Assembly (NCBI GenBank): GCA_947465345.1
Contig: CANHZL010000045.1
Span: 1-7,684 of the forward strand
Reading direction: 5' to 3'
From: Opitutia bacterium
GTDB taxonomy: Bacteria; Verrucomicrobiota; Verrucomicrobiae; Opitutales; UBA953
Length of the DNA: 7,684 nucleotides
Shown piece by piece: positions 1,021-5,346 of this stretch (positions within the stretch are counted from its first letter, which is position 1; each line of letters begins with the position of its first letter). The notes beneath the pieces are model-generated. The model was not told where the DNA came from and did no database searches. It was given only the letters and a program-made list of their open reading frames with translations. The translations under genes were made by a program, and so were the position numbers.

Positions 1021-1091
1021 TAGTCCGACTAGGATTTGAACCTAGACAAGGAGAATCAGAATCTCCTGTGCTACCATTACACCATCGGACT
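1021..1091 (-). tRNA. tRNA-Gln(CUG)
   Basis: Read on the minus strand from 1091, all cloverleaf parts are present. The 7-bp acceptor AGTCCGA/TCGGACT has the weak A1-U72 pair favoured by glutaminyl-tRNA synthetase. The 4-bp D stem GTGT/GCAC ends in a G-U pair. The anticodon stem GGAGA/TCTCC carries loop TTCTGAT, followed by a 4-nt variable region. The T stem CTAGG/CCTAG carries loop TTCAAAT, and the discriminator base is A. The anticodon CTG is at 1057-1059 and reads CAG. No CCA is encoded: the genomic sequence after the discriminator is TTTCC, so CCA must be added after transcription. Length is 71 nt. Confidence 0.96.
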
Positions 1092-1170: not shown

Positions 1171-1205
1171 GGGATAGGGGTAGGGGTGGGGGCAGGGGTA
1201 GTTAA
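1171..1205. repeat. Left arm of inverted repeat, degenerate GGGGTA hexamers
   Basis: Five hexamer units are based on GGGGTA (GGGATA, GGGGTA, GGGGTG, GGGGCA, GGGGTA), then GTTAA. The reverse complement matches 1685-1719 at 32 of 35 positions, including 12 unbroken positions at the inner end. Positions 1177-1198 hold four GGGG runs with 2-nt loops, a canonical G-quadruplex motif on the + strand. The arm ends exactly one base before ATG 1206, and its last AGGGG (1194-1198) lies 7 nt upstream of that ATG, at Shine-Dalgarno spacing. Confidence 0.9.
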
Positions 1206-1274
1206 ATGCAGTTAGGTGATAGTCATCAAGGGTCAGCTATTGGCGGACAAACGGAGCCTCGGCCTGCTTATGGG

Positions 1275-1688
1275 ATGGAAATCGCGAGCCTCTCCAACTT
1301 CGTCACCTGGCAGAAATCCGTCCGACTTGCCGCCGACGTAATCAAGCTCACCCAACGCACTTCACTCAGCCGACATCTCTGGGCCTGCGACCAGCTACGT
1401 CGCGCCGCGCTATCGGTCCCGAGCAATATCGCTGAAGGCTATGAGCGAAGGGCCGAGAAAGATACCGAGCGCTTCTACCTCATCGCAAAAGGTTCCTGTG
1501 CCGAAGTACTCACGCAAATCAAAGTCGGCCAACTGGCGGATCTTCTGAGCCAGCAAGAAGCCGCGCCTATCGTGGCTCAGTGCGAAGAGATTCTCCGACT
1601 GATCGCCGGAGTGCTTAAGGCGCGCCGACTCGCGCGCGACTCAAATGCATTCGCGCCACAAGCTTCCACCGATAAGCCACGGCGTTAA
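1275..1688 (+). CDS. Four-helix-bundle protein, 23S rRNA intervening-sequence (IVS) family
   Basis: This 137-residue protein carries the family signature: NFVTWQKSV near residue 8, DQLRRAALSVPSNIAEGYER at 39-58 and FYLIAKGSCAEVLTQI at 67-82. These fall on the amphipathic helices of a small all-helical bundle. Relatives are encoded inside insertions in 23S rRNA helices, and the Avd accessory protein of diversity-generating retroelements shares the fold. The biochemical role of stand-alone members is not established, though nucleic-acid binding is suspected. I chose ATG 1275 because family members begin just before the F-x-x-W-Q-K motif. An in-frame ATG at 1206 adds 23 atypical residues but has a better-placed AGGGG in the left repeat arm, so it may be the real start. 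The stop codon (1686-1688) lies inside the right arm. The gene looks less GC-rich than its neighbours, which suggests acquisition. No rRNA is nearby, so this is a free-standing copy. Confidence 0.88.
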   Translation: MEIASLSNFVTWQKSVRLAADVIKLTQRTSLSRHLWACDQLRRAALSVPSNIAEGYERRAEKDTERFYLIAKGSCAEVLTQIKVGQLADLLSQQEAAPIVAQCEEILRLIAGVLKARRLARDSNAFAPQASTDKPRR

Positions 1689-1725
1689 CTACCCCTACCC
1701 CTACCCCTACCCCTACCCCTACCCC
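1685..1725. repeat. Right arm of inverted repeat, six perfect TACCCC hexamers
   Basis: Positions 1690-1725 are six exact TACCCC units, preceded by TTAAC. Positions 1685-1719 are the inverted partner of 1171-1205 (32 of 35 match). The minus strand reads GGGGTA six times and could form a G-quadruplex. The arm contains the stop of the four-helix-bundle gene (1686-1688) and the TAG stop of the convergent doc gene (1719-1721), so the two stops are 30 bp apart inside one repeat. This arm is perfect while the left arm is degenerate. Confidence 0.92.
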
Positions 1726-2129
1726 TTCTTCCTCTTCTTCGCCTTCGGTTCGCCCACCGACTTAGCCAACCACTGTCCATATTCAGCCTCGGAGATCTGG
1801 CTGGCCGCCAGACCGAGCGTCTTGATCACGACTTCGACTTCCGACGCCTCGAAGGTCAGGCCATTTAATTCCATGAAGGCCGCGGCCGCCATGAAGCCGG
1901 TCCGCTTGTTGCCATCTGTGAACAGATGACCCTGGACGATGCCGACCGCATAAGCCGCGGCGAGCCGGGCCAAGGTGGGTTCGCCGTAAGAGAACAGATG
2001 CTTTGGTCGCGCCAAAGCCGACTGCAGGCGACCGGCGTCGCGAATGCTCGCATCGCCACCATAGTCGGCGACGACCAACTCGTGGAGAGCCAGAACGGAC
2101 TCCAGTCCCAGCCAATGCGGCTCTTTCAT
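1719..2129 (-). CDS. doc: Doc (death-on-curing) family toxin, Fic fold
   Basis: This 136-residue protein carries the Fic/Doc active-site motif HLFTDGNKRT at residues 68-77. The motif includes the His, the Asp, the Asn-Lys-Arg of the Doc subtype and the anchoring Phe. Doc enzymes phosphorylate EF-Tu and halt translation, and the HxFxDxNKR form distinguishes them from AMPylating Fic proteins, which carry GNGR. The N-terminal segment LGLESVLALHELVVADYGG and the region RLQSALARPKHLFSYGE are also typical. The length is normal for Doc. The start codon overlaps the antitoxin stop (ATGA at 2126-2129), so translation is probably coupled. The basic tail (KAKKRKKG) is unusual and its last codons and stop lie in or beside the TACCCC array, so the C-terminus may have been altered when the repeat arose. 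All motif residues are intact and the toxin looks functional. Confidence 0.92.
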   Translation of the reverse strand: MKEPHWLGLESVLALHELVVADYGGDASIRDAGRLQSALARPKHLFSYGEPTLARLAAAYAVGIVQGHLFTDGNKRTGFMAAAAFMELNGLTFEASEVEVVIKTLGLAASQISEAEYGQWLAKSVGEPKAKKRKKG

Positions 2130-5175: not shown

Positions 5176-5334
5176 CGGTTTCCCTTTGAGTGCTGGCTCT
5201 CTACCTTGGGTAGGGACGTGATTGCCATCACGTCCGTTCGCCTAGCGACACAGTTATTAATCTGACTTAACTAAGACCCGACGACTCTCAGACTTCGGCC
5301 TCGAACGGATGCGATGGCAATCGCATCCCTACCC
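5176..5334. repeat. Interspersed repeat copy 2: REP doublet (BIME/REPIN-like)
   Basis: This is the second copy of the 2412-2570 element, in the same orientation. The core 5208-5334 differs at only 6 of 127 positions, all in the middle, and both terminal 33-bp arms are identical between copies. Hairpins are at 5214-5235 and 5307-5328, with GTAG feet at 5210-5213 and, on the minus strand, 5329-5332. It sits between the convergent ends of comF and the RluA-family gene, a typical REP location, and could terminate both transcripts. No RAYT gene is in the window. Confidence 0.85.
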
Positions 5335-5346
5335 GATGCATTGGTC

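Follow-up and report, generated by a model that had tools for sequence, protein, structure and literature searches.

Inverted arrays of short repeats around genes of the 23S rRNA intervening-sequence protein family probably delimit insertion units that carry no recombinase of their own

Introduction

Proteins of the PF05635 family (TIGR02436, 23S_rRNA_IVP; here IVP) are common and, in the portions of the literature covered, have been functionally uncharacterised since their discovery in 23S rRNA intervening sequences (IVSs). According to the accessible parts of the respective reports, the IVS of Coxiella comprises 428 nt with a 28-bp stem (PMC4990558), CPR bacteria have IVP ORFs in 16S and 23S insertions as well (PMC11270868), and 18 IVP genes are located in cas loci (PMC3936711). 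The window analysed here, the whole stretch of 7,684 nucleotides from an Opitutia bacterium (contig CANHZL010000045.1), raises the question of what such a gene represents when it stands between a tRNA gene and a toxin gene, enclosed by inverted hexamer repeats. We consider that the gene and its two arms probably constitute a discrete insertion unit, a selfish or mobile cassette (~0.55 kb here) without its own recombinase, whose arms are putatively recognised by the IVP protein. Support is good for the insertion unit as such and moderate for the putative recognition of the arms by the protein. The original prediction, made from the letters of this DNA, envisaged a compact mobile unit of this composition. 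An IVP gene with inverted arms and no transposase is indeed found, the arms recur and unit-less sites exist, but GGGGTA as the signature of such units and quadruplexes as their general basis had to be given up.

The unit in the window

The left (5') arm (1171..1205, + strand) consists of five GGGGTA-type hexamers (GGGATA GGGGTA GGGGTG GGGGCA GGGGTA, 1171-1200) followed by GTTAA, and its inward-reading strand is purine-rich. The right (3') arm (1685..1725, + strand) is composed of TTAAC and six TACCCC units, which span 1690-1725 and extend 6 bases past position 1719, where the arm had been thought to end. The segments 1171-1205 and 1685-1719 are inverted copies, identical at 32 of 35 positions; the match is most exact at the inner ends, with 12 unbroken positions counted from the inner end; the left arm's inner 12 bases (1194..1205, + strand) are the exact inverse of 1685-1696. 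These features had been described correctly, as had the location of the IVP stop codon (TAA, 1686-1688) within one arm. The sequence GGGGTAGGGGTA, with one mismatch at most, occurs 8 times in the window, every time within the arms (shuffled mean 0.02), and in the RNA fold of 1168-1729 the closing stem is formed by the two arms (z = -6.5). The unit has terminal inverted repeats, as insertion sequences do, and complementary ends that enclose an ORF, as IVSs do. Its location outside any rRNA gene keeps it from being classed as an IVS: an Rfam scan of the window matched the tRNA alone, with no rRNA gene around the unit. Nor is it classed as an insertion sequence, since its protein has no transposase domain.

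The neighbours outside the unit are, on the left, a tRNA-Gln (CTG) gene (1021..1091, - strand), conserved next to the insertion site in the orthologous loci L001-L006, and on the right a DOC/Fic toxin gene (1719..2129, - strand), accompanied on that side by a MazE-like antitoxin gene. The stop codon of the toxin gene, on the opposite strand, overlaps the right arm.

The IVP gene (1275..1688, + strand) encodes a four-helix-bundle protein of 137 aa. Its frame is open from an ATG at 1206, and such an in-frame ATG beside the left arm had attracted attention from the outset. It does lie directly inside the arm but is probably not the true start, because homologues begin at the ATG at 1275 and the AF2 model of the long reading has pLDDT below 50 at residues 1-24. 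A length of 137 aa is found in 19 listed homologues, and in the six of them that were aligned the first residue is that encoded by ATG 1275. The protein scores 98 bits against PF05635 (cut-off 33.8), its sole Pfam match, and 95.7 against TIGR02436 (cut-off 24). The Pfam scan of the unit's protein detected no transposase or recombinase domain and likewise no Y1/HUH (RAYT) domain, and there was no reverse transcriptase among the nine proteins scanned in the 7.7-kb window.

The AF2 model (mean pLDDT 80.7) has the expected four-helix-bundle fold, the top ten Foldseek matches all being chains of 2gsc and 2rld (TMt 0.83-0.87); 8ub7 and 4dwl, the Avd proteins of diversity-generating retroelements (DGRs), rank below them with weak E-values of 0.24-0.37. 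Each of the solved relatives 2gsc and 2rld contains five chains. Xcc0516, a solved IVP protein, originates from Xanthomonas campestris, and Lin et al. 2006 has a title that names five four-helix bundles.

Arms around other IVP genes

An early look at other copies revealed inverted arrays of other hexamers in Opitutae and of 7-, 8- and 9-mers in other phyla. IVP genes were then found by profile in the fetched loci, and each was scored by the best inverted Smith-Waterman match between its 400-base flanks, which could be done for 220 of 224 distinct genes and for 152 of 154 representatives below 70% amino acid identity. Inverted arms reached a score of at least 36 in 89 of the 152 representatives and at least 30 in 114, leaving 63 below 36 and 38 below 30. 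When flank partners were swapped, 1 of 606 pairs reached 36 and 5 of 606 reached 30; for control ORFs, from which those near IVP matches were excluded, the numbers were 5 and 11 of 293. Direct instead of inverted matching of the IVP flanks gave 22/152 at 36 and 31/152 at 30, so that tandem arrays evidently add some orientation-independent matches. PIN-domain genes from the same order never reached even 30 (0/30). The expectation that other copies of the family carry arms was thus borne out, as was the expectation that such arrays are not equally frequent away from these genes: a stricter array-pair detector, applied to 151 of the 154 representatives, detected a pair around 57, against zero in 654 kb of sequence drawn from 40 genomes of that order.

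The arrangement is spread over distant groups. In a first set, arms at 36 or above were found in Nitrospirota (4/5), Bacteroidota (2/3), Planctomycetota (2/4) and Clostridia (2/4), with smaller numbers elsewhere, and in Gammaproteobacteria 11 of 30 loci reached 36 and 20 reached 30. A separate arm scoring covered 78 of 81 loci, three with short flanks being dropped, and its control contained one IVP gene (L026). The IVP set as a whole is non-random, 80 loci having been picked by likeness to the window protein and most others being among the best matches of one order. Of the plasmid records, 18 had an IVP match and eight loci were fetched, seven from Cyanobacteria and one from Riemerella, two of them identical copies; six of the seven distinct loci reach 36 and the seventh scores 32. 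No relatives were confirmed in viral contigs and phages. The gene is patchily distributed in the order (at least 79 of 177, among the matches listed), and 11 genomes chosen for having it contain 2-7 copies.

The position of the window unit next to a tRNA gene does not extend to a general target. A tRNA gene lies within 700 bp of 11 of the 154 representatives, always tRNA-Gln, and ten of these are proteobacterial and belong to one recurrent arrangement, the eleventh being the window. A tRNA was near 18 of 233 control ORFs, and no enrichment is claimed, as these controls include neighbours from the same loci. In the proteobacterial arrangement (L015, L021, L027, L031, L034, L042, L050, L060, L063, L187) the tRNA-Gln gene is placed ~120-180 bp downstream of the IVP gene; judged by eye, an rpsI-like end precedes the gene in L186 and L187.

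Arm design and its relation to the protein

The repeat unit is 6-9 nt long and differs between loci, which rules out GGGGTA as the family-wide signature that the window had suggested. Among the 89 arm pairs the period is 7 (or 14) in 59, 8 in 19, and 6 or 12 in 7. A purine-rich 5' arm was seen in 84 of the 89 and, owing to the inverted orientation, the purine strand points inward at either end. Arms contain a median of 4.9 and 4.8 units with a mode of 5 (n=73, the pairs of the 89 with a clear period), a mode that is only suggestive because very short arms are less likely to pass the score threshold. Quadruplex recognition, proposed at first as a possible principle, is ruled out as the general basis: four G-runs are present in 13 of 89 5' arms.

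The sequence of the arms follows the protein even at unrelated loci. For pairs of genes with unrelated flanks, mean arm similarity falls from 0.40 at protein identities of at least 70% (n=10) to 0.30 (n=125), 0.21 (n=800), 0.18 (n=979) and finally 0.17 at 40-45% (n=2335), the last equalling random pairs (0.17); 809 pairs with too short flanks were excluded. The pairs have genes in common and lack independence, and there are few in the top bin. Such a trend is what co-inheritance, and probably also recognition, would predict.

The mechanism that we consider most likely is the following. Each end presents a short locus-specific unit about five times, inverted, with the purine-rich strand facing inward, and the IVP protein, a homopentamer in the solved relatives, would recognise the units of its own arms, conceivably, as a guess, one repeat unit per subunit of the ring. 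The substrate might be arm DNA or a hairpin RNA from the transcribed unit, which a host or neighbouring enzyme would then cut and join.

Evidence for insertion

Comparison of otherwise colinear sites with and without the unit indicates that it inserts. One case is a site downstream of a TraM-like gene on Nostoc plasmids, which measures 52 bp in p057_A and p057_K of strain C057 and 50 bp in UHCC 0302, and which is occupied by an IVP cassette in C052 and N. edaphicum; the TraM proteins of C052 and C057 are 95.9% identical. The survey included 6 plasmid records besides C052 and N. edaphicum, of 235 with the gene. In pNsp_c of ATCC 53789 the TraM-like gene is followed by a gene-less arm pair with nearly the same starting bases, and in p057_H of C057 by a different gene-less inverted insert; in pNsp_b of ATCC 53789 the next gene differs, which places this plasmid outside the comparison. 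The Nostoc alignment shows no target duplication, and the cassette replaces, rather than splits, 42 bp of the empty site.

In one genome (G018) two IVP copies are 93% identical over 453 bp, and their homology begins and ends within the arrays. Their outer flanks differ except for ~60 bp, the left outer flank of one resembling the right outer flank of the other inverted. One of the copies occupies the ilvC-hemC interval and starts at the ilvC stop codon. Five of the seven other genomes of the family have this interval without the unit, with ~95-110 bp between the matches; of the remaining two, G100 contains nested gene-less arms round an assembly gap, and in G059 the stretch has no hemC match. 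The gap region of G100 (L388) holds a number of gene-less inverted arms that belong to different types and lie one inside another. Pairs of at least 70% identity make up only 4 of 124 same-genome IVP pairs, one at separate loci (G018) and three formed by local neighbours, which implies that recent jumps are rare.

A further site is the type I-D CRISPR locus of Anabaena 90 plasmid pANA02 (L254), where cas6 and cas4, only 23 bp apart in Nostoc UHCC 0302, enclose an IVP gene; Dolichospermum UHCC 0315A has another inverted insert at this place. The AGGTGAC/AGGGAAC arrays of L254 are long on the left, and the matching right array is located within the annotated start of cas4. Insertion of the unit would explain the presence of IVP genes in cas loci.

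History of the window locus

The loci closest to the window come from Opitutae and other Verrucomicrobia MAGs. With the neighbouring gene as anchor, 26 of 30 loci from the family were read, four weak matches being left out. The IVP gene is present in 4 of the 26, in one of them internally deleted. Another locus (L265) has kept the left arm and lost the gene, and in two (L271 and L272, judged by eye) tRNA-Gln is directly followed by the DOC-like gene without the unit. A gene-less GGGTGGC-type insert was found in 7/26, other sequence with the IVP gene absent in 6/26, and 3/26 end just past the tRNA; tRNA-Gln was not found in 3/26. In a single-gene tree of the anchor, loci with the IVP gene are interleaved with those that lack it (for L259 the state is that of L005 from the same genome). 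The left arm is constant at five units across orthologues, including L001-L006, and the right arm varies from ~3 to 8. For six window-locus orthologues dN/dS was 0.04-0.09 in 12 diverged pairs and 0 to 0.33 in three near-identical pairs; L006, whose reading frame ends differently, was left out. We read the unit of the window as probably one old insertion between the tRNA-Gln and DOC genes, which some lineages would have kept under purifying selection and several others lost. Vertical conservation with no empty sites had been named as evidence against mobility. The tRNA-Gln site of the window does look old and vertical, but losses and unit-less relatives occur there, and insertion is seen more directly at other loci.

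This history, with its vertical descent, losses and purifying selection, would also fit a locus that has never been mobile and regulates itself, the arms of the mRNA pairing into a hairpin as a substrate for RNase III or a binding site for the protein, and presence and absence reflecting loss only. The arms do close the RNA fold of the window unit, and stems of 23S IVSs are cut by RNase III, as stated in the accessible part of PMC4990558. We nevertheless consider such autoregulation unlikely, as it does not agree with two 93% identical copies at different loci whose homology ends in the arms (G018), nor with colinear unit-less sites in several relatives, and gene-less arm pairs with inward purine polarity have no such mRNA to regulate.

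GxxExxY genes

The insertion unit is not confined to IVP genes in its design. GxxExxY genes (PF13366, PDDEXK_3) were expected to have similar surroundings, which was tested on 29 of 30 loci of the same order (L327-L356). Inverted arms of short repeats surround the gene in 21/29 at a score of at least 36 and in 25/29 at 30. The protein family is unrelated to IVP, and the arm unit, of the CACAGAG/CGCAAAG type with a period of ~8-10, is more uniform than around IVP genes. GxxExxY proteins are presumably PD-(D/E)XK-like, as the family name implies, and it may be speculated that they provide IVP units with the cutting step.

The shared design raises the alternative that the arms are used by the machinery of another element, a GxxExxY nuclease or a reverse transcriptase, with IVP as a passenger or accessory comparable to Avd in DGRs. 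In G018 an IVP copy is bordered by sequence which, by eye, is like the arms of the GxxExxY gene of this genome, and the IVP fold weakly resembles Avd (8ub7, 4dwl). The units of IVP arms track the IVP protein, however, and IVP and GxxExxY genes within ~1.5 kb of each other were seen by eye in two genomes only, among the matches listed, which makes this explanation rather improbable, more so than autoregulation.

Relation to known systems

An insertion unit of IVP gene and arms resembles the 23S IVSs of Leptospira and Coxiella, which encode the same protein family and have the ORF looped between complementary ends in a unit of ~0.4 kb. Unlike these, the window unit is located between protein and tRNA genes rather than in an rRNA gene, gene-less forms occur, and the ends are built of about five locus-specific tandem units, the IVSs having been compared on end complementarity. 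REPIN-RAYT systems consist of a small single-domain gene with flanking short inverted repeats, and in some genomes gene-less inverted pairs are dispersed. The small gene, the short inverted repeats and the gene-less pairs are common to both, but the HUH/Y1 transposase domain is missing here and the arms are tandem arrays, not single palindromes. Avd is part of a retroelement with a reverse transcriptase and template repeats; it shares the fold class with IVP, with weak E-values in Foldseek, whereas the nine proteins of the window include no reverse transcriptase.

No published account of such arms around IVP or GxxExxY genes was recognised in the open-access literature searched, a body of text with most subscription papers and bioRxiv outside it. 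The repeat-arm architecture would be of a new kind, and it could also be counted under IVSs. Its recurrence across many phyla, together with behaviour like that of an inserted unit, points to overlooked selfish or mobile DNA. A broader proposal, which we regard as possible but less likely than not, is that an unnamed class of transposase-less cassettes is formed by IVP or GxxExxY genes in inverted arrays of about five repeats, that the pentameric IVP ring reads one repeat per subunit, with protein and array co-evolving at each locus, and that 23S IVSs, IVP genes of cas loci and many unexplained intergenic heptamer repeats are the products or remnants of such cassettes. The PF05635 family gains a testable substrate from the pairing of protein and arms, and IVSs may become one instance of a broader kind of insertion. 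Should the protein count repeats, it would recognise DNA or RNA in a new way.

Gene-less forms and array-rich genomes

Insertion units may also leave arms without a gene, and these offer a possible source for intergenic heptamer repeats that have hitherto had no clear explanation. L402 is such a gene-less arm pair, and by eye L170, L171, L177 and L402 all have inward purine polarity. In L185 (G405:C186) an IVP remnant of 31 bits, below the curated cut-off, lies between GGGACTC arms, and a GGGACTC pair with no gene is found in that genome too (L171); together the two possibly represent a decay series. No excess of gene-less pairs was seen in IVP-positive genomes (0 vs 0, in 20 and 20 pieces), and an IVP match is absent in 5 of 11 array-rich genomes, so IVP is not the sole source of arrays. 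A simple model of source and copies also does not suit G530, because its genome-wide GGGATTC arrays are not the arm unit of its own IVP genes, one of which has GGCAGTC arms and the other a weak arm match.

In the accessible parts of PMC4692102, 186 and 183 G-rich heptamer repeat patterns are described for two Xanthomonas genomes, with 70 (Xcc) and 75 (Xac) convergent pairs and a preference for four units; the heptamer is GGGAATC in Xanthomonas and GGGGA(C/T)T in Nostoc. The 7-nt units and convergent pairs are shared with IVP arms, unlike any link to IVP, the terms 'four helix' and '23S rRNA' being unmatched in the parts of that paper searched. Heptamer arrays of this sort, right arms of ~3-8 units such as slippage would give, and array-rich genomes without an IVP match could speak for independent simple-sequence repeats, arisen by slippage or for other reasons (quadruplexes, terminators) and with the gene landing nearby, but this very improbable explanation, already disfavoured, is at odds with arms of one locus that share a unit in inverted orientation (1/606 for swapped partners), with arms that track protein identity at unrelated loci, and with PIN genes of the same order (0/30).

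Extra gene-less array pairs accompany the IVP genes of L029 and L076 at a distance of ~1-2 kb, with the same unit as the adjacent IVP arms. The window itself also contains a 167-bp intergenic repeat in two copies that are 90% identical (2412-2578 and 5176-5342); each has its own inverted arms (GGGTAGGGACGTGATTGCCATCACGTCC...), and portions of it also match L001 and L002.
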